From Muribaculaceae bacterium (GTDB taxonomy: Bacteria; Bacteroidota; Bacteroidia; Bacteroidales; Muribaculaceae), in the NCBI GenBank assembly GCA_023667285.1, contig JAMPAK010000001.1, positions 355,140 through 419,139 of the forward strand: DNA of 64,000 nucleotides, read 5' to 3'. The position numbers and the translations under genes were made by a program. Below the pieces are notes generated by a model. It worked only from the letters and a program-made list of their open reading frames with translations, did no database searches and had not been told where the DNA came from. Below are positions 9,939 through 57,105 of this stretch, piece after piece; positions within the stretch are counted from its first letter, which is position 1, and each line of letters begins with the position of its first letter.

Positions 9939-11045
9939 ATGAATATGAAGAAGCTGCTTATAGTCTGTGACGGGATGGACGACAGCCCTCTGGAGTGTCT
10001 GGGGGGGATGACCCCGGGGCAGTATGCACGGACTCCCAACATGGACTTGCTTGAGTCGATGGGGAGTGTGAGGATGATTCAGACAACGCCATGTGGGATG
10101 AATCCAGGGAGTGAGGTGGCCATCACCACGCTCCTTGGCTATGACGCTCGGGTGGTCGCTCAGTCGAGGGCTCCGTTTGAGGCAGCAGGTGTGGGGTATA
10201 TGGCTGCTGATGATGAGCTTTTGCTGAGGTGCAACATCATCGGTGTGTCGGCCGATGGGGTTGTCACGTCACACGACGGAGGTGGCTTCACGGACTCAGA
10301 GGGCCGCATTTTTGTTGACCGGATGGCCGCAGGCATGAAGGATGAGAGAGTCAGGATAATAGCCGGGCAGGACTACAGACACATACTGGCTGTGAGGGGC
10401 GGAAGCAGGGAGATAGTCTGTACTCCGGCCCATGAGATGACAGGACAAAGGATTGCTGACCATCTTGTGAGAGCGGCGGCAGACACCCCATCGCTGATAG
10501 GGGGGATGACTCCGGCAGAGACTGCAACGTTGCTGAACGGATTGATAAAGGAATACGGCATCTGGCCATGGAGCCCCGGCTTCAGGCCTCTTATGGAACC
10601 ACTTGGGGTGAAGGGAGCCGCGGTGACGGCTGTGAATCTGGTGAGAGGGATTGCCCAATACAGTGGTCTGAGACTGATTGAGGTCGCGGGAGCAACGGGG
10701 AAACCTGCCACAAACTATGAGGGTAAGGTTGAGGCTGCGCTTGAGGCTCTTCGGACTGATGACTTCGTGATGCTCCACCTGGAGGGACCGGATGAAGCAT
10801 CACATGCCCGCAATCTTGACGGGAAAATCCGTGCAATCGAGATGATTGACAGCCGAGTGGTCGGTCCGGTTATCGGCAGACTCAGAGAATATGAGACACC
10901 TGTGGGCCTGACCGTGACCCCTGACCACGGCACATCAGTGACCACAGGCTCACATCTCCCCTTTCCCGTCCGAGCCATCAACGCCGTCTTCCAGCATGAA
11001 CTGAAGGGAATAAAGGGTACAGAGCGAGACACAGGGGACCTCTGA
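9939..11045 (+). CDS. apgM: Archaeal-type cofactor-independent phosphoglycerate mutase, divergent and short
   Basis: A 368-residue enzyme interconverting 3- and 2-phosphoglycerate. The visible metal and phosphate ligands are intact: Asp in VCDGMDD, the nucleophile Ser in PGSEVAITTLLGYD, Asp/His in GPDEASHAR, and Asp/His in TPDHGTS with a later His. Relatives are roughly 400 residues. Here a loop before IWPWSPG is missing, and recognisable homology stops near PFPV (about 10970). The last ~25 residues look unrelated and lie antisense to the 3' end of GH43 (96-base overlap). Alternative start 9945. Confidence 0.82.
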   Translation: MNMKKLLIVCDGMDDSPLECLGGMTPGQYARTPNMDLLESMGSVRMIQTTPCGMNPGSEVAITTLLGYDARVVAQSRAPFEAAGVGYMAADDELLLRCNIIGVSADGVVTSHDGGGFTDSEGRIFVDRMAAGMKDERVRIIAGQDYRHILAVRGGSREIVCTPAHEMTGQRIADHLVRAAADTPSLIGGMTPAETATLLNGLIKEYGIWPWSPGFRPLMEPLGVKGAAVTAVNLVRGIAQYSGLRLIEVAGATGKPATNYEGKVEAALEALRTDDFVMLHLEGPDEASHARNLDGKIRAIEMIDSRVVGPVIGRLREYETPVGLTVTPDHGTSVTTGSHLPFPVRAINAVFQHELKGIKGTERDTGDL

Positions 11046-12563
11046 ACTGAAAGTGAGATAGAGTGGATGCTTGCCGCTCAGGCCTGAGAGCGAGAGGGGG
11101 ATGGAAACCTGCTGACGTGTCCGAGCCATCGAGGATGAGAGTTCAATGGAACCTACCGGCTGAGGCTCACCTTTCCAAGGGGCTGTGGTGTAGACTCTGA
11201 TGATCCCGTCAATCCCTTCAGGAATCAGGTCGAGGATCAGAGACACATTTTTCTTTCCGGCGAGAGGCCGGAAGTTGAAATATTTGTAGCCCAGTATGGA
11301 GCCGTTGGTGTTGTTGACCACAGGGCTGACGTTTATCGAATCGTTATATGGGTCGTCCACCTTGTGGTCATCAATATAGACCGGAGGGAAGTATGGGCCG
11401 GTATAATGCACCTTGGGGTATTTCTGCACTGCAGGCTCGGGGCCTGTGAAATGAGACGCTATGGCTGCGGGATAGCGTCGCAGGGGGTTGAGTCCGGAGG
11501 TCTCAAATCCCTCCGAGGTATATTCTGCCTCGCTTATCATTACCTTTCCACCTGGACCCTCCTCGACAGAGACCTCGATGGGTGCCACCATGGCCTGGCG
11601 GGAATATTCATTGACCCCGCTCTGGCGATGATAGAACACATACCACCGGCCGTTGACCTCTATGATGCTGCCGTGGGTGTTGCCGTTAGGAGTGGCGGTC
11701 ACCATAGGGTTGCCCGTAGCATCAGTGTCGCGTCCACGCCCATCGATGATGGTTCCGCCGTATGTGTATGGGCCTAGGGGCGAGTCGCTGTAGGCATAAG
11801 CCAGGGTGTAGTTCGATGCAGGAAGACCAAAATCGCCTGGAGCCGACCAACGGCTGTAGACCAATACATACTTATCCTTGACCTTACGGATGGATGATGC
11901 CTCATAGAAGCGGAACTGTCCGTCGTCGCTTCGGCTCGATATGAGCCCATCTACAACCTCTGTGCCGGGCTTGACGGTCGACATGGTGGAGGGATCAATC
12001 TCAGCGGCCATTGAGCGGTCGAAACCCCAGTAGCCATACACGCGGCCATCATCATCGGCCAGGACCGCAGGGTCAAACCGGAAGACGCCATCGGTCTTCG
12101 TGGAATCCTCCTTGCTCCAGTTTATCACCTCAAAGGGGCCGTCAGGACGCGAAGCGCGGGCCACCATGCCGTTGCGGCCTCCCACCTGATTGTTGGGGTA
12201 GAGATAATACTCCTTCGATCCGTCTGAGCGAGTGAGCTCGGCGACATCCGGGGCATAGAGGACATCAGACTTGCCGTCGGGAGAAGAGACCTTGAAAATC
12301 ACACCGTCATATCGCCATGCATCAAGTGAGTCTGTCTGGGCTGACCACACCACGAGGTCCGTGCCGCAATATTGTGTGCGCAGCATGTCGTGGGAGCCAT
12401 AGAGATACAGACGCTTGCGGCCTGGATTGTCGGGGTCATCGAAGATATGAGGCTCGCCGTCTGGGATGTGCTCCCATAGAGGGAGGAACGGGTTGGCAGC
12501 GTCCGCTGAGATGGCTGAGACAGTGGCGAGGGCGAGGACCAGAAGTTTTTGCATGGTTCTCAT
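10950..12563 (-). CDS. Exported glycoside hydrolase family 43 with C-terminal binding-module-like domain
   Basis: A 537-residue exported enzyme (signal peptide about 1-22; ATG at 12563 or 12554). The five-bladed propeller carries the GH43 acidic residues: an Asp in HIFDDPDNPG (42-44 region), Asp164 in FRFDPAVL and Glu221 in FYEASS, with HGSIIEVNGRWYVFYH later. Residues about 400-525 resemble a CBM6-like beta-sandwich (HPLYLTF). The likely substrate is arabinan, xylan or pectic side chain. It starts 7 bases after the GH28 gene. Its 3' end overlaps apgM antisense. Confidence 0.88.
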   Translation of the reverse strand: MRTMQKLLVLALATVSAISADAANPFLPLWEHIPDGEPHIFDDPDNPGRKRLYLYGSHDMLRTQYCGTDLVVWSAQTDSLDAWRYDGVIFKVSSPDGKSDVLYAPDVAELTRSDGSKEYYLYPNNQVGGRNGMVARASRPDGPFEVINWSKEDSTKTDGVFRFDPAVLADDDGRVYGYWGFDRSMAAEIDPSTMSTVKPGTEVVDGLISSRSDDGQFRFYEASSIRKVKDKYVLVYSRWSAPGDFGLPASNYTLAYAYSDSPLGPYTYGGTIIDGRGRDTDATGNPMVTATPNGNTHGSIIEVNGRWYVFYHRQSGVNEYSRQAMVAPIEVSVEEGPGGKVMISEAEYTSEGFETSGLNPLRRYPAAIASHFTGPEPAVQKYPKVHYTGPYFPPVYIDDHKVDDPYNDSINVSPVVNNTNGSILGYKYFNFRPLAGKKNVSLILDLIPEGIDGIIRVYTTAPWKGEPQPVGSIELSSSMARTRQQVSIPLSLSGLSGKHPLYLTFSSEVPCVSLCTLYSLQFMLEDGVDGSDGKGEM

Positions 12564-51264: not shown

Positions 51265-51738
51265 ATGAAAATCGTTATCATAGCCGTGGGCAAGACATCC
51301 ACGCCATACATAGCCACCGCAGTCGACGACTACCTGCGCCGCGCCTCTCACCATGTCCCCGTCGAGATGACGATTATACCTGATCTCCGCTCCCCGCGCG
51401 GACTCTCTGAGGATGCCCAGAAGCAGCGCGAGGGTAAGTCCATACTGGCAGCTCTGCAGCCCGGCGATCTCGTGACACTCCTCGACGAGCGTGGCGCCGA
51501 GTTGAACTCGCGTCAGTTTGCCGCAGAGATCGAGCGAGCCATGGTGAGCGGACTTAAGAGGATAGTCTATGTGATAGGCGGCCCCTATGGATTCTCTAAG
51601 GAGGTCTATGACCGCTCTGACCGTAGACTGTCCCTCTCCAGGATGACCTTCACCCACGAGATGGTGAGACTCTTCTTTGCAGAGCAAGTCTACCGAGCCA
51701 CCACCATAATGAGAGGCGAGCCATATCACCACGACTGA
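51265..51738 (+). CDS. rlmH: 23S rRNA (pseudouridine1915-N3)-methyltransferase RlmH
   Basis: A 157-residue SPOUT methyltransferase modifying helix 69 of 23S rRNA. It begins MKIVIIAVGKTSTPYI; the knot region has VIGGPYGFSKEVYDR, and the C-terminus FTHEMVRLFFAEQVYRA with GEPYHHD is diagnostic. The long frame from 51037 is antisense to nadC and not used. It converges on the 58-residue membrane protein gene with 9 bases between stops. Confidence 0.95.
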   Translation: MKIVIIAVGKTSTPYIATAVDDYLRRASHHVPVEMTIIPDLRSPRGLSEDAQKQREGKSILAALQPGDLVTLLDERGAELNSRQFAAEIERAMVSGLKRIVYVIGGPYGFSKEVYDRSDRRLSLSRMTFTHEMVRLFFAEQVYRATTIMRGEPYHHD

Positions 51739-51747
51739 CCCGACGGC

Positions 51748-51924
51748 TCACAAGAAAATCATAATCACATAGACTATCGCCAGTCCCACGGCCGTGTAGG
51801 CCGCACTGCTCCTGAGCAGAGTGCGCCGCGCCCCCTTGCGCCGTGGCGACATCCACGTGTAGAGGCCCCCGGAAAATATCCCGAAGACGAAGGACGCCAG
51901 AATCCAGTAATACACGTTGCCCAT
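51748..51924 (-). CDS. Small two-helix membrane protein, 58 residues
   Basis: Short frame beginning MGNVYYWILASFVF. Two hydrophobic helices (about 5-25 and 41-58) are separated by a strongly basic loop (SPRRKGARRTLLR), so the loop should face the cytoplasm. Its start lies 9 bases after the ddl stop, so it is the probable fourth gene of the hydrolase/MurF-like/ddl operon. No family recognised. The TGA at 51748-51750 ends it just before rlmH's convergent stop. Confidence 0.7.
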   Translation of the reverse strand: MGNVYYWILASFVFGIFSGGLYTWMSPRRKGARRTLLRSSAAYTAVGLAIVYVIMIFL

Positions 51925-51933
51925 ACCCTCACA

Positions 51934-53118
51934 TCAAGCCTTGGCACCCTTCACTCCACCCTTGGCTCCACAGGTCATCGCAAAGATGTTCTGGTCATAG
52001 CTCACGGTTTTCTGTCCCTGCTCACGCTTGCGCTTGAGAGCCAGGCGCACCAGGCGGTCCATAAGTTCAGTGAAGGGGATGCCCGTGGCCTCCCACAGAT
52101 AGAATGAGAGAGAACCTGGGATAGTGTTTATCTCGTTGACATATATCTCGTTCTTGTCATCATCTATGATAAAGTCGATGCGGCTCACGCCATGACAGCC
52201 AAGCACCCTGAAAGTCTCGCCCGCCAGAAACTGTATACGCTTCGTGACATCGGCAGGAAGTTCGGCAGGGATGCGCTTCTGTGATGCCTGCATACCCTTG
52301 GCTCCCTTCGTGCCACCCATATACTTGTCCTCATACGAGAGAATCTCCGCACTCTTTATCGGCTCCTCGAGCACCGACGACTGATACTCATCGCAGTCGC
52401 CCAGCACCGAGCAGTTGATCTCCTTTAGATTGTCCACCATGTCCTCCACAATGATGCGCGATGAATATTTCTCAGCAGTGTCGATTTTCTCAATGAGCTG
52501 TTCACGATCAGCCGCGCGCCCTATGCCCACACTAGAGCCGAGATTGGCGGGCTTGACAATCACCGGATAGCCAATCTTGCTCTCGATGCGCTCAATCAGC
52601 TCTTCGCGCTTCGCAAACCACTCCTTGTCTGTGAACCACACATAGTCAATCACCGGGATTCCACACTCGCGCAGAATCATCTTCATTGTTATCTTGTCCA
52701 TGCCGTTGGCGCTCGCCAGGGTGTTGCACCCGGCATAGGGAATCCCTATGGTCTCCAGCACTCCCTCAAAGATGCCATCCTCAACGTTGGATCCATGAAG
52801 CACCGGGATGACCACATCGAGAGTAGTGACGACAGCCGAGCCGAACATAGGTTTCTTCACACGATAGAGGTTATAGTCGCCATAGCTTGGCTCCATGTAG
52901 ACCTGTGTGCACTTATCGAGAAGAGCGGGGATATCCTTGTAGTTCTTGATGTCAAATAGAGCATCGCCTGTATAATAGCGTCCCTGCTTGGAGATATAGA
53001 TGGGTGTCACGTCATATTTCTCGCGGTCGATGGCGGCCATGGCCTGCGAGGCCGAGATGACCGATATCTCATGTTCGGTGGAACGGCCGCCGAAGAACAC
53101 TCCGATGTTTGTTTTCAT
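51934..53118 (-). CDS. ddl: Divergent D-alanine-D-alanine ligase family protein (ATP-grasp)
   Basis: 394 residues, versus about 310-330 for canonical Ddl. The N-terminus GVFFGGRSTEHEISVISA and the ATP-grasp domain (VIVKPANLGSSVGI, VNEINTIPGS) are clear. The omega-loop region reads YEDKYMGGTKGAKGM and lacks the second Tyr of E. coli DdlB. The active-site end reads PGSLSFYLW where DdlB has PGMTSHSL. A Lys/Gly/Ala tail follows. It should ligate two D-amino acids or a D-amino acid and a hydroxy acid; specificity is uncertain. Operon with the MurF-like gene 44 bases upstream. Confidence 0.82.
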   Translation of the reverse strand: MKTNIGVFFGGRSTEHEISVISASQAMAAIDREKYDVTPIYISKQGRYYTGDALFDIKNYKDIPALLDKCTQVYMEPSYGDYNLYRVKKPMFGSAVVTTLDVVIPVLHGSNVEDGIFEGVLETIGIPYAGCNTLASANGMDKITMKMILRECGIPVIDYVWFTDKEWFAKREELIERIESKIGYPVIVKPANLGSSVGIGRAADREQLIEKIDTAEKYSSRIIVEDMVDNLKEINCSVLGDCDEYQSSVLEEPIKSAEILSYEDKYMGGTKGAKGMQASQKRIPAELPADVTKRIQFLAGETFRVLGCHGVSRIDFIIDDDKNEIYVNEINTIPGSLSFYLWEATGIPFTELMDRLVRLALKRKREQGQKTVSYDQNIFAMTCGAKGGVKGAKA

Positions 53119-53162
53119 TCTGAGATAATGGGATTTGAAGGATTGACCTTACTTGTATTGGA

Positions 53163-54749
53163 TTATTTAAATGTGTCAGGGAGATCATTCTCATAGAGCA
53201 CAGTGTCGCCGGGCTTGAGCATCCCGGCCAGCAATGTCTGCGACTCCGCAAACGACCCCACCGTATGAATCTTTGCTATGCGCGGCTCCACACTCTCGAT
53301 GCCAGAGACTATGGCGTCGCGGTTATACTCGCCCACAACGATGGCTATGTCGGCCGAGATGGCAATCCGTTTTCCGAACTCACGGTTCAGTTCCTCCTGC
53401 TTGTCGCCGAGCTCAATCATGCCCGGGGTAACCACTATGCGTCTCCCCTTGTCCATCATGGCAAGCACATCCAAGGCCATCCCTGAGCCTGTGGGATTCG
53501 AGTTGAAGGCATCATCGATGATGGTGACTCCCATTGGCGTTCGCTTCATGTTGAGACGGTGCTCCACCTGCTCAATCTGCCCCACAGCATAGCGTATCTT
53601 CTGTTCGGGCACACCGAGCCTCAGCGCCACGATGATGGCTGCAAGGAGGTTGCTGACATTACATTCACCCACCAGGCGTGTCGAGAACTCCAGCCGGCTT
53701 CCGTCAGGAGTGACCACTGTGAATTTTGTGCCTGAGGGGGTATATCTCACATCTGTGGCCACGTATTGTGCTGCGCCTGTCGAGGTGACGGCATAGCGTA
53801 TGCACTCCACATTCTCAACCTTCCGCGACGCTACATAGGGAAAGTCATCGTTGACCACTGCGAGGCCGTCGGCTGGGAGGGAGTCGACAAGCTCAAACTT
53901 GGTCTGCTGGACCCGCTCGATGGTCTTGAACGACTCAAGATGCTGCGGCCCAACGGCCGTGATTATTCCAATCTCCGGATGCACAAGGTCGCAGATTTCC
54001 TTGATATCCCCCGGCTGCTTGGCCCCCATCTCAACGATAAAGACCTCATTGTATGGCTTGAGATATTCGCGGACAGTGCGTATCACACCCATCGTGGTGT
54101 TATAGCTGCCGGGGGTCATCATCACATCGAAATGCTCCGCGAGTATGCGGTTGAGATAATGCTTTGTGCTGGTCTTGCCATAACTGCCTGTGATTCCTAT
54201 CACCTTCAGTCCCGGCATCGAGCGCAGGATGCGCTCCGCATCGTTGTAATACCCCTTATTTATCTTCGTCTCCACAGGTTTCAGAAGCCAGTTGGCTATG
54301 AGTATGAAAAGGTGTGAGAAGCAATAGACACCCAGGGCGGTTACGGCCGCAATGCTCACTCCACACTCCCCCTGTCCGGCCAAGAAATATGAGCCGGCTA
54401 TGACGACAATGGCCAGAAACGCGGTGACAGCATAGATGCGTTTTGCCCTCGGTGTCCAAACCAGCGGCTTCTTATAGCGCGCCGTGATGAGATTGATGAT
54501 ATTGAGTATCGAGACAAAGCACACAAGCCCCATGGAGACGAGGGGGAAACTGAGCGTTGAGAAGGAAGCCAGCACCACTGCCCCGCTCACCAGTCGGCGC
54601 AGGGAGGTAGTGTCCTCCGAGGCAGTGAGCCATCGGCGATATCGCTCGTTTCGATAAGAATTCTGCTGCAGCATCATCAAGCATCGCCTCAGTTCGTAGA
54701 CTGCGCCGATAAGTGCTATAATCAGGGTGATATACGTGAACAGATACAT
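53163..54749 (-). CDS. Membrane-anchored Mur ligase family protein (MurF-like)
   Basis: 528 residues. Residues about 1-155 form four or so membrane helices in place of the UDP-substrate-binding N-domain of MurF. The ATP-dependent amide ligase core follows: P-loop ITGSYGKTSTK, TPGSYNTTMG, VEMGAKQPGDI, the carbamylated-Lys region QQTKFELVD, and the C-domain (IIDDAFNSNPTGSG, TPGMIELGD). It ends YENDLPDTFK, unlike the KGSR-type MurF end. It probably joins a D-amino-acid dipeptide to a membrane-bound acceptor; that is inference. It sits between an alpha/beta hydrolase and a divergent Ddl. Confidence 0.85.
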   Translation of the reverse strand: MYLFTYITLIIALIGAVYELRRCLMMLQQNSYRNERYRRWLTASEDTTSLRRLVSGAVVLASFSTLSFPLVSMGLVCFVSILNIINLITARYKKPLVWTPRAKRIYAVTAFLAIVVIAGSYFLAGQGECGVSIAAVTALGVYCFSHLFILIANWLLKPVETKINKGYYNDAERILRSMPGLKVIGITGSYGKTSTKHYLNRILAEHFDVMMTPGSYNTTMGVIRTVREYLKPYNEVFIVEMGAKQPGDIKEICDLVHPEIGIITAVGPQHLESFKTIERVQQTKFELVDSLPADGLAVVNDDFPYVASRKVENVECIRYAVTSTGAAQYVATDVRYTPSGTKFTVVTPDGSRLEFSTRLVGECNVSNLLAAIIVALRLGVPEQKIRYAVGQIEQVEHRLNMKRTPMGVTIIDDAFNSNPTGSGMALDVLAMMDKGRRIVVTPGMIELGDKQEELNREFGKRIAISADIAIVVGEYNRDAIVSGIESVEPRIAKIHTVGSFAESQTLLAGMLKPGDTVLYENDLPDTFK

Positions 54750-54782
54750 AGTTGGTTGAGCAGTGAGAGAAGAGAATTTGAC

Positions 54783-55556
54783 TTACTTCAGAAAAGTTTC
54801 CAGCACAGCCTTGAAGCCCCTGGGATTGTCGAGAAAACTGTAGTGGCCACACCCGTCAAAGCTGACAAGACCTGCGTCAGGAACCAGGCTCTCCATCTTG
54901 CGCGCATCTGCCAGCGGTGTGGCGGTGTCGTCAGCGCCCCATATGAGGAGCGTGGGAGCCTTGATGAGCGGCAGCCGTGAGGTGAGGTCTTCGTTGACAA
55001 CCTTTGATAGGATGCGCCTCATCATCGGGGTGGCCTGCGCATAGTCTGACGACCCGGCCTTTGCCCTCCGGGCATCGAGCCTCCGCTCAGCCTCCTTGCG
55101 TCCGAGAGCCAGATACATCAGCCACTTCATGGCCTTGAAGGCATACACCTTGCGATAATATGTAAATGTGCGCCGTGGCTTTATGCCGGCGGCGTCTACA
55201 AGTATGAGTTTGCCAACCTCAGGATGACGCGATGCATAGAGAATGCCCACTCGCCCGCCGAATGAATGTCCCAGCAATGAGGGCCTCTCAATTCCCAGGG
55301 CTGAGACAAGGTCCTCGATGACCCGGGTGTACTCCTCGACTCCCCACACCTCCGGCGGCTCCTCAGAGCCTCCGAAACCAGGGAAATCAACATTTATGAC
55401 ACGCCACCCCTCACTGAGCGCTACTCGCTCCACAGACGCCAGGGTGGTGTGGTCACAACCCCAGCCGTGCATCAGCACGAGTGTCCGAGGCCCGGAGCCG
55501 TTGTCAGTGTAGTGGAGTCTTACTCCGCTTAGAGTGATATCCTTGTCCATACTCAT
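54783..55556 (-). CDS. Alpha/beta hydrolase
   Basis: A 257-residue cytoplasmic-looking hydrolase with HGWGCDH (oxyanion), nucleophile Ser in GHSFGGR, Asp in WGADDTATP and His in GCGHYSFLD. The fold is closest to generic Abhydrolase_1/6 esterases. No signal peptide. First gene of the operon with the MurF-like ligase, ddl and small membrane protein; the -7 box is 12 bases upstream. A role in editing or releasing the ligase product is plausible but unproven. Confidence 0.87.
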   Translation of the reverse strand: MSMDKDITLSGVRLHYTDNGSGPRTLVLMHGWGCDHTTLASVERVALSEGWRVINVDFPGFGGSEEPPEVWGVEEYTRVIEDLVSALGIERPSLLGHSFGGRVGILYASRHPEVGKLILVDAAGIKPRRTFTYYRKVYAFKAMKWLMYLALGRKEAERRLDARRAKAGSSDYAQATPMMRRILSKVVNEDLTSRLPLIKAPTLLIWGADDTATPLADARKMESLVPDAGLVSFDGCGHYSFLDNPRGFKAVLETFLK

Positions 55557-55568
55557 GAAATTGACCTA

Positions 55569-55576
55569 CAAAAGTA
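55569..55576 (-). promoter_or_regulatory. -7 box (TACTTTTG) for the hydrolase/MurF-like/ddl operon
   Basis: The minus strand reads TACTTTTG, 12 bases before ATG 55556. It shares a 98-base divergent region with the merR promoter. Confidence 0.65.
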
Positions 55577-55636
55577 CATAAATCCCCCCTCATCTCCAAC
55601 TTTTCCATCGAATTTTGCCATGAGGAGTTTTTTGGT

Positions 55637-55644
55637 TATCTTTG
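55637..55644 (+). promoter_or_regulatory. -7 box (TATCTTTG) for merR-mltG
   Basis: TATCTTTG ends one base before ATG 55646, which cannot then be transcribed from this promoter. ATG 55655 is therefore the probable start. Confidence 0.65.
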
Positions 55645-55654
55645 CATGTTATTT

Positions 55655-55990
55655 ATGCATCCGACCGACAAGCGATATTACAAGATTGGCGATGTGGCAG
55701 AGATGCTCGGCCTGCCTCAGTCAACACTGAGATTCTGGGAGACTCAGTTTCCCACTGCCGTACCACACCGCAACGCCAAGGGGACCCGCCTCTACACTCC
55801 GCGCGACATCGAGAACCTGCGCATACTCAAGTTCCTGCTTCACGACAAGGGGCTGCGCATCGAGGCTGCACGCGAGGAACTGAAGGTGAACCGCGACGGT
55901 GTCATCAAGCGCGCTGAGGCTCTGGCCTCGCTCCGCGATGTCCGCGACAAACTCCAGTCGCTTCTAGACTCACTCCATAAATTGAGATGA
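55655..55990 (+). CDS. MerR family transcriptional regulator
   Basis: A 111-residue protein. The winged helix-turn-helix begins YYKIGDVAEMLGLPQSTLRFWE, and the wing has RLYTPRDIENLRILKFLL. A C-terminal helix forms the usual dimer coiled coil (about 85-111). No effector domain or Cys cluster, so it is a minimal MerR. The ATG at 55646 is ruled out by the promoter. Its stop overlaps the mltG start (55987), and it is divergent from the MurF-like/ddl operon, which it could regulate. Confidence 0.88.
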   Translation: MHPTDKRYYKIGDVAEMLGLPQSTLRFWETQFPTAVPHRNAKGTRLYTPRDIENLRILKFLLHDKGLRIEAAREELKVNRDGVIKRAEALASLRDVRDKLQSLLDSLHKLR

Positions 55991-57105
55991 CTGAACAGAA
56001 ACCCACAGAAACTCCAAAATCCCCTGCTCCGCGTCCTAAAAAGCCAAAGACACCCGGGAGAAAAAAAGGGAAGAACAAGGAATCATGGCTTCACCGCCAC
56101 TCCATGGGGGTGATGATAGCGGTGATTGCCTTCTTTGCCGTGATTTTCGGAGTGTTTTGCTTCGCCTTCATCCCCCACACAGGTGCCGGTGATGATGGCG
56201 ACTGGGTCTATATCCCCAAGGGTGCCGACCGGGATGCTGTGAAGGATAGCCTGAAGTCATCCCTGGGATCCTCGATGGGAACTAGGGTCTACATGATGTG
56301 GTCGCTTATTGGAGGCACCCCAGGCGGGAGCAACGGTGCATATAGGATAGACAATGGGATGACGGCTCTGAAGGCAGCCCGCAGGCTGTCTACAGGCAGG
56401 CAGACTCCGGTGACGCTGTCGTTCAAAGGCCCGAGGACTATGGACCTGCTCGCCGCCCGTATAGCCTCACAGCTTGAATGTAGCCCCGAGGAATTTCTGG
56501 CTGCATGCGATGAGGTGCTTCCCGCAGAGGGATTCAACCGCGCCGGATATCCGGCCGCGTTCATCCCTGACACATATGAGTTCTATTGGAATTCCTCAGC
56601 CTCCGGCGTGGTGAGACGCCTGCTTGACTATCGCAATCGCTTCTGGACACCCGAGCGTGTTGCCAAGGCCAAGCGGGAGGGTTTGACCAAGGTGCAGGCA
56701 GCCACGGTGGCTTCCATCATTGAGGAAGAGACAGCCAAGAGCGACGAGCGCCCCAAGGTGGCTCGCCTTTACCTCAACCGCCTCCACAAAGGGATGAGGC
56801 TTCAGGCTGACCCGACGGTGAAATTTGCCACCGGCGATTTTTCACTGCGGCGCATCAAGGGTGAGCATCTCAAAGTCAACTCCCCTTACAATACCTATCT
56901 CCACGCCGGACTTCCACCTGGTCCCATCAGAGTGGCGGCGGCAGCCTCCATAGACGCCGTGCTTAATGCCCCTGACCACCCCTATCTATTCATGTGTGCC
57001 AAGGAAGACTTCTCAGGCTACCACAACTTCGCCACTGACTTTGCGGCTCACCGCGAGAATGCCCGCCGCTATCAGGCTGAGCTCAACAGACGCAATATAA
57101 AATAA
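55987..57105 (+). CDS. mltG: Endolytic murein transglycosylase MltG
   Basis: 372 residues. A Pro/Lys-rich cytoplasmic tail (1-38) and one membrane helix (about 40-63) precede the YceG domain. The catalytic Glu is in TVASIIEEETAK (about residue 246); PDTYEFYW, LQADPTVKFA and SPYNTYLHAGLPPGPI are family motifs. MltG cuts nascent glycan strands and sets their length. Four-base overlap with merR shows translational coupling. Another envelope-related gene next to the MurF-like/ddl operon. Confidence 0.94.
   Translation: MTEQKPTETPKSPAPRPKKPKTPGRKKGKNKESWLHRHSMGVMIAVIAFFAVIFGVFCFAFIPHTGAGDDGDWVYIPKGADRDAVKDSLKSSLGSSMGTRVYMMWSLIGGTPGGSNGAYRIDNGMTALKAARRLSTGRQTPVTLSFKGPRTMDLLAARIASQLECSPEEFLAACDEVLPAEGFNRAGYPAAFIPDTYEFYWNSSASGVVRRLLDYRNRFWTPERVAKAKREGLTKVQAATVASIIEEETAKSDERPKVARLYLNRLHKGMRLQADPTVKFATGDFSLRRIKGEHLKVNSPYNTYLHAGLPPGPIRVAAAASIDAVLNAPDHPYLFMCAKEDFSGYHNFATDFAAHRENARRYQAELNRRNIK

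Follow-up and report, generated by a model that had tools for sequence, protein, structure and literature searches.

The window analysed here is a stretch of 64,000 nucleotides from a Muribaculaceae bacterium (GenBank assembly GCA_023667285.1, contig JAMPAK010000001.1, positions 355,140 to 419,139), and its subject is a group of genes encoding an alpha/beta hydrolase (ABH), a membrane-anchored MurF-like ligase (MurMem), a long D-alanine--D-alanine ligase (Ddl) and a small membrane protein (Table 1). The initial annotation had described four minus-strand genes behind one -7 box, and the genes and the box were found where it had placed them, with intergenic gaps of 33, 44 and 9 nucleotides. The minus strand of 51400-56000 contained a single TAnnTTTG box, which lies ahead of the ABH gene and is a candidate promoter by consensus match. 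The first three genes form the module considered below. The fourth encodes a two-helix protein of 58 amino acids. In 104 stretches searched it adjoined the Ddl only in L150, L169, L202 and L171, all close relatives, and it was dropped as a core part of the module.

Table 1. Features of the module locus in the window (gene coordinates include the stop codons)
Feature	Position	Strand	Length	Remarks
Alpha/beta hydrolase (ABH)	54783-55556	-	257 aa	Likely triad S98, D210, H238
MurMem, membrane-anchored MurF-like ligase	53163-54749	-	528 aa	Mur middle and C-terminal domains, without UDP-binding N-domain
MurMem membrane domain, residues 1-160	54270-54749	-		Four to five predicted helices, motifs LQQNSYRNERYRRWL and KKPLVWTPRAKR
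ENDLPD motif, MurMem C-terminus	53175-53192	-		Replaces KGS[RNH] of ordinary MurF
Long Ddl	51934-53118	-	394 aa	Sole Ddl found in genome
Shortened loop PGSLSFYLWE, long Ddl residues 334-343	52090-52119	-		Replaces PG[FMC][TS]..S
Membrane protein directly downstream of Ddl	51748-51924	-	58 aa	Only in close relatives
TAnnTTTG (-7 type) box TACTTTTG	55576-55569	-		TTG at 55599; consensus match only

The window MurMem matched the Pfam models Mur_ligase_M and Mur_ligase_C, and the N-terminal Mur domain was unmatched. When 54 of 71 eligible loci were aligned together with the window, the two matched domains were present in 55/55 homologues and the N-terminal domain in 0/55, with an additional weak EI24 match in one member. 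A Pico_P2A match in MurMem fell below its cut-off and was discarded. Four hydropathy peaks were found in the window protein at a threshold of 1.6 (residues 2-20, 70-88, 105-123 and 133-151), in agreement with the earlier description of a Mur ligase that lacks the domain for the uridine diphosphate (UDP)-linked substrate and carries about four membrane helices. Among the 55 homologues, four helices were predicted in 37, five in 15, three in two and two in one, and the extra helix lay near residues 49-68 in the three five-helix homologues inspected. Two conserved Arg/Lys-rich stretches, LQQNSYRNERYRRWL and KKPLVWTPRAKR, are located between the helices, and residues Q28, Y32, T99, R101, R104, P158 and E160 of the membrane domain were invariant in all 55. 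By the positive-inside rule, Arg/Lys-rich stretches are favoured at the cytoplasmic face of a membrane. Five helices would place both stretches in the cytoplasm, and four would place the first one otherwise.

MurMem resembles MurF in its middle and C-terminal domains, which align with TIGR01143 over about 330 residues at 235.6 bits, below the curated cut-off of 288.6; the match in P0001 begins only at position 73. The best solved relative was MurF 1gg4. Residues K192, E240, H270, N367, R398 and D412, which we take to be the Mur catalytic residues, were invariant in a 15-sequence alignment; among the 55 sequences K192 and N367 fell to at least 90%, and the other four remained invariant. A quick 50-row tree, in which the outgroup branches were long, placed MurMem as a single clade (SH-aLRT 99) beside MurF. 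Besides the missing N-domain and the four to five predicted helices, MurMem differs from MurF in its C-terminal region: ENDLPD was present in 55/55 MurMem sequences and in 0/28 ordinary MurF rows (23 distinct), whose residues at that position are KGS[RNH]. In MurF this position would be the expected seat of the far end of the dipeptide.

The long Ddl scored above the curated cut-offs for D-alanine--D-alanine ligase (TIGR01205, 277.4 against 245.65; NF002528, 333.7 against 262), and 40/40 aligned long Ddls (39 of 57 eligible loci plus the window) matched both models at 1e-30 or better. It had been annotated as 60-80 residues longer than usual; it is indeed longer, but by 41-71 residues, when compared with nine short-kind Bacteroidales Ddls of 323-353 amino acids. 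Length alone was rejected as a rule for the linked Ddl: ordinary-loop Ddls of 357-404 amino acids occur in non-MurMem genomes, and it was therefore defined by its loop, clade and tail. The PGSLSFYLW end pointed out in the initial annotation was present and proved diagnostic of MurMem-linked Ddls. PGS[LF][SA]FYLW was found in all 26 linked rows (24 distinct genes), and PGS[LF][SA]FYL in all 40 aligned long Ddls, followed by W in 39, while the 25 other Ddl rows, of which four are second Ddls in MurMem genomes and 21 come from genomes lacking MurMem, all had PG[FMC][TS]..S. The long-Ddl loop is four residues shorter than that of larger ordinary Ddls. An omega-loop insert and, in most members, a Gly/Lys-rich C-tail further distinguish the long Ddl. 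In a 56-row tree whose columns included the diagnostic loop, it fell into a single clade (100/99). The omega-loop Lys-Tyr, a feature of D-Ala-D-Ala ligases, was retained. Tyr216 is placed in the omega loop of D-Ala-D-Ala ligase in the accessible text of PMC7691350. In a solved Ddl, the contacts to D-Ala-D-Ala include Gly281, Ser286 and Leu287 (accessible text of PMC6899670), a stretch with which we equate the changed loop; the Ser-Leu of this C-terminal contact loop was absent from 40/40 long Ddls. Ddl and MurMem are thus both altered where we would expect the far end of the dipeptide.

Because the Ddl belongs to a wider family that includes VanG and VanA, an operon of the vancomycin-resistance (Van) type, with D-Ala-D-Lac or D-Ala-D-Ser as its product, was considered. 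However, the Van models listed all scored far below their cut-offs (VanG, 230.7 against 495; VanA, 161.2 against 775), and a Van operon was rejected on these scores. With variable flanking genes and a retained omega-loop Lys-Tyr we regard this explanation as extremely improbable.

The ABH matched PF00561 at 97.7 bits. Residues S98, D210 and H238, which from knowledge of the family we take to be the likely catalytic triad, were invariant in 28 aligned homologues (27 of 66 eligible loci plus the window).

Co-occurrence and taxonomic spread

The initial annotation had called for a neighbourhood survey and had supposed that homologous sets exist in other gut bacteria. In the best 80 of 577 confirmed loci (the named loci), ABH was directly upstream of MurMem in 74, Ddl directly downstream in 66, and all three genes stood together in 62; in five exceptions to the full order (L184, L189, L191, L227 and L232) MurMem lies at most 600 bases from an end of the stretch. 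The same order, ABH-MurMem-Ddl, was found in both Bacteroidota and Bacillota loci, so that the supposition was borne out. The named loci came from Muribaculaceae, other Bacteroidales, Lachnospiraceae, Butyrivibrio, other Clostridia, Pelotomaculum, Pseudalkalibacillus, Geomicrobium and Aquibacillus, and in a locus from an Erysipelotrichaceae metagenome-assembled genome (MAG) MurMem had no adjoining Ddl. No neighbour family besides the module genes was present in more than 10/100 stretches.

In L212, from a MAG labelled Thiomargarita (Pseudomonadota), MurMem is alone in its stretch and ABH lies elsewhere in the genome, representing either a misassigned bin or transfer. In L215, from a MAG labelled Muribaculaceae, the module and its neighbours resemble Lachnospiraceae loci, and the label may be wrong.

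Genome sets for the family, order and phylum (119, 247 and 296 genomes) were drawn by tool and the others were chosen by hand (56 and 25 genomes for TIGR01143, 53 for PF07478 and 44 for ABH); since most of the genomes are drafts, calls of presence or absence rest mainly on draft assemblies. Co-occurrence in the phylum set was near perfect. MurMem was present in 61/296 genomes (at least 265.7 bits; next match 139). ABH was present in 62/296 (E 1e-35 or better), namely the same 61 and G241. The long Ddl, called at 402 bits or more with the match reaching the C-terminal tail (next match 372, without the tail), was present in 61/296, namely 60 of the 61 MurMem genomes and G241. Among the 44 chosen genomes, ABH scored at least 183 bits in 23 of 24 MurMem genomes, whereas the 20 genomes without MurMem gave no score above 105 bits. 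The module genes were unlinked in G467, G488 and G469 and, outside the class, in G404, G222, G144, G341, G408 and G329; since they lie apart in several MurMem genomes, the linkage of the three genes is not only positional. Because its Ser, Asp and His are kept and its linkage is as tight as that of the other genes, ABH likely catalyses a step.

In the family set, MurMem was found in 113/119 genomes at E 1e-151 or better, including one copy without its N-terminal part (G118) and one with an internal stop (G116). Stand-alone MurF took its place in five genomes that share a genus code (G017, G040, G060, G095 and G109), and one genome, 62% complete, had neither. A sixth genome of that genus code, G079, contained MurMem, ABH and the long Ddl, and no ABH was detected at 1e-20 in the four of its five congeners that were tested. 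This is a module swap within a genus, and such a natural swap is suited to comparative wall chemistry. Across the order MurMem is patchy, with full-length copies in 13/247 genomes and a broken copy in a fourteenth, G590.

Pairwise distances of the three proteins correlated at 0.90-0.92 (65 loci), values that related sequences would also give. The trees did not cleanly separate Bacteroidales from Bacillota members. This suggests that the module was transferred, but deep branches in the trees were weak. The module as plasmid cargo was rejected, as 0/72,556 plasmid records had a place covering 80% of MurMem (E limit 1e-20).

MurF, MurF-Alr and Ddl genes in MurMem genomes

Stand-alone MurF with a TIGR01143 match above 288.6 bits was found in 0/33 chosen MurMem genomes and, at 345-433 bits, in 23/23 chosen non-MurMem genomes; for comparison, the phylum set contains 235 non-MurMem genomes. 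One of the 33, G520, had a fusion-sized frame of 1019 amino acids at 289.1 bits. Outside the class, where 14 MurMem genomes were examined, no next-best match exceeded 152 bits, and five of the 14 had no other match at E 1e-25. The result was the same in the MurMem genomes reached from the named loci (0/25). The best match was MurMem itself in 24 of these 25 and a fusion-sized frame (281.3 bits) in a Barnesiella MAG, G677; because the matches of G677 equal those of G434 in the other set, and the two are apparently the same genome, 24 rather than 25 further MurMem genomes are counted. Four of the strongest five second matches in these genomes were MurE by their own models.

Within the Bacteroidales, a fusion-sized MurF match was present in 17/19 MurMem genomes, that of the window included, and G467 and G488 (98% and 91% complete) had MurMem without one. 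All 17 Bacteroidales genomes without MurMem had a fusion-sized match and stand-alone MurF together. No MurF-type enzyme other than MurMem was detected in G467 and G488, in the same-phylum genomes outside the class or in the Bacillota examined, and for this reason the module is most likely the housekeeping D-Ala-D-Ala branch in a different form.

The initial annotation had viewed the set as an extra system beside housekeeping MurF and Ddl, and had proposed a search for separate canonical murF and ddl genes, taking their absence as a refutation. For Ddl this view was not supported: in the window genome (93.8% complete) the long Ddl, at 177.9 bits against PF07478, was the one Ddl found, and the other matches reached at most 40.5 bits (two in a frame of 1077 amino acids and one in a frame of 405). 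MurC, MurD, MurE, MraY and MurG lie in a single cluster and scored above their cut-offs, MurC by a margin of 0.3 bits, with no murF or ddl among the genes called there. The search did return a MurF-Alr fusion elsewhere (L148:3841-6303; G000:C11:132840-135302), at 993.8 against the NF008897 cut-off of 804. MurF-Alr of Bacteroidia thus provides a MurF-type domain in the same genome as MurMem, but it retains the N-terminal part, carries an alanine racemase, and occurs with and without MurMem. In its MurF part EMGA was changed to EAGI in all 13 aligned fusions. The DAYNANP site reads DKFTPDL in the window genome, DKFTADL in L315 and DAYTSDY in L314, and is NDSYNSD-like in most other fusions, the divergence being greatest in the window genus. 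These changes suggest that the MurF half of MurF-Alr is diverged or non-catalytic.

On balance, we think it probable that the three genes act as a module replacing the D-Ala-D-Ala branch of peptidoglycan precursor synthesis, with probable lipid-linked ligation. Several observations weigh against this. The MurF-Alr of the window genome covers nearly the whole TIGR01143 model (248.6 bits), and the fusion-sized protein (MurF-Alr where read) could be the real MurF in Bacteroidales MurMem genomes. PF07478 matches at 1e-25 numbered one in 35 and two or three in 10 of 45 MurMem genomes, so the long Ddl is not everywhere the sole Ddl-like gene; the four extra copies read (L248, L249, L250 and L251) have an ordinary loop, PG[FC]T..SR[YF]P, and are VanG-like by eye, and the remaining extra matches, some of them in G469, G411 and G372, mostly score about 100 bits. 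Three genomes break the co-occurrence: G237 has MurMem without any Ddl match at 1e-30, G678 has MurMem without ABH, and G241, whose genus code is common to three MurMem genomes, lacks a full MurMem but has the other two genes, ABH and the long Ddl. An assembly gap is likely in each. The lost UDP domain, too, could mean only that the membrane domain has taken over binding of the UDP substrate.

If MurF-Alr were the true MurF in Bacteroidales, the module would be an accessory system making a different envelope peptide. The fusion in the window genome and the fusion-sized matches in most Bacteroidales MurMem genomes speak for this. However, no second Ddl was found beside the long one in the window genome, and no fusion-sized match occurs in G467, G488, the MurMem genomes outside the class or the Bacillota examined. 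Furthermore, all 17 non-MurMem Bacteroidales carry stand-alone MurF in addition to the fusion, and it is the former that MurMem replaces. We consider an accessory role very unlikely.

Proposed route and acceptor

Textbooks treat MurF and Ddl as essential, as targets for drugs, and as cytoplasmic enzymes that act on UDP-linked precursors. In the replacement route that we favour, the long Ddl would make D-Ala-D-Ala or a close variant. MurMem would be a MurF whose UDP-binding N-domain has been exchanged for a membrane domain, and would join the dipeptide to the stem tripeptide on the cytoplasmic side of the membrane. The acceptor would most likely be lipid I or II with tripeptide rather than UDP-N-acetylmuramoyl-tripeptide (UDP-MurNAc-tripeptide), which is the simplest reading because MurMem has no uridine-binding domain but has a membrane domain. 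ABH would be the third component and would probably hydrolyse some intermediate or product of the route.

MurT is, to our knowledge, the peptidoglycan Mur-type ligase without a uridine site, and we know of no membrane helices in it. MurMem is distinct from MurT, scoring 21.2 bits against a cut-off of 800, and no GatD-like shared partner was found near the module (GatD elsewhere in the genome was not searched). The likeness between them would lie in the substrate: according to the accessible text of PMC6085368, MurT/GatD amidates lipid I and II and leaves UDP precursors unmodified, and uridine is bound by the N-domain in Mur ligases.

Alternatively, the same module could act on soluble UDP-MurNAc-tripeptide, with the membrane domain docking this MurF by MraY and the two Arg/Lys-rich motifs replacing the N-domain. 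MraY, MurG and MurC to MurE all pass their models in the window genome, and the motifs would suit a pyrophosphate or a phospholipid. The N-terminal Mur domain was nevertheless absent from every MurMem aligned, and MurT acts on lipid-linked precursors; a UDP-linked acceptor is possible, if somewhat unlikely.

The changed loops bear on the nature of the dipeptide. The long Ddl might make D-Ala-X (X being an ester or other derivative of D-Ala, or another amine), which MurMem would attach and ABH would unmask to D-Ala-D-Ala. This would fit the shortened loop found in 24/24 distinct linked Ddls against the longer one in 25/25 others, the contact of Ser286 and Leu287 with D-Ala-D-Ala (accessible text of PMC6899670), and ENDLPD in MurMem against KGS[RNH] in MurF. 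It would also give a step to ABH, which is tightly linked and has an invariant Ser/Asp/His set. On the other hand, no masking enzyme is linked to the module, where no other family recurs in more than 10/100 loci, and the omega-loop Lys-Tyr is retained as in D-Ala-D-Ala ligases. The role of KGSR in MurF is itself deduced, and the case rests on the loops. We judge a masked dipeptide unlikely. The fuller version, in which the pentapeptide would be completed on a lipid-linked precursor from a C-terminally masked dipeptide that ABH then unmasks, seems distinctly unlikely; if true, it would be the sole route in the Bacillota and same-phylum carrier genomes.

In many bacteria of the gut and the environment, this three-gene set appears to have taken the place of the standard D-Ala-D-Ala enzymes. 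If replacement by the module holds for whole gut-bacterial groups, the order of wall-synthesis steps may be different in those groups, members of the microbiota would respond unequally to MurF or Ddl inhibitors, and an ABH-type hydrolase would be a missing component of the pathway. The finding makes directly testable which precursor carries completion of the pentapeptide.

No description of a membrane-anchored MurF or of the three-gene set was found in open-licence PMC (subscription papers and bioRxiv were outside the search). In the accessible text of PMC9377095, murF homologues are mentioned only in expression data, and that of PMC12786226 presents a tree of Mur ligases in Erysipelotrichales but does not mention membrane helices. 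What appears to be new is that the genes are linked, that the ligase lacks a domain and that the set replaces standard enzymes; the Ddl name is not new, since the curated Ddl models were passed.

Flanking genes

A MerR-type regulator (window 55646-57105) is divergent from the module, and its end overlaps the start of MltG. The module had been described as adjacent to this MerR-MltG unit. They do adjoin in the window, but the flanking genes vary among loci, and a functional linkage was dropped. In L157 (G109:C26), 9947-12394, from an ordinary-MurF genome, a relative of MltG (45% identity) is located a few kilobases from MurF. As MltG adjoins the module in the window, ordinary MurF and the module may have been exchanged at one site.

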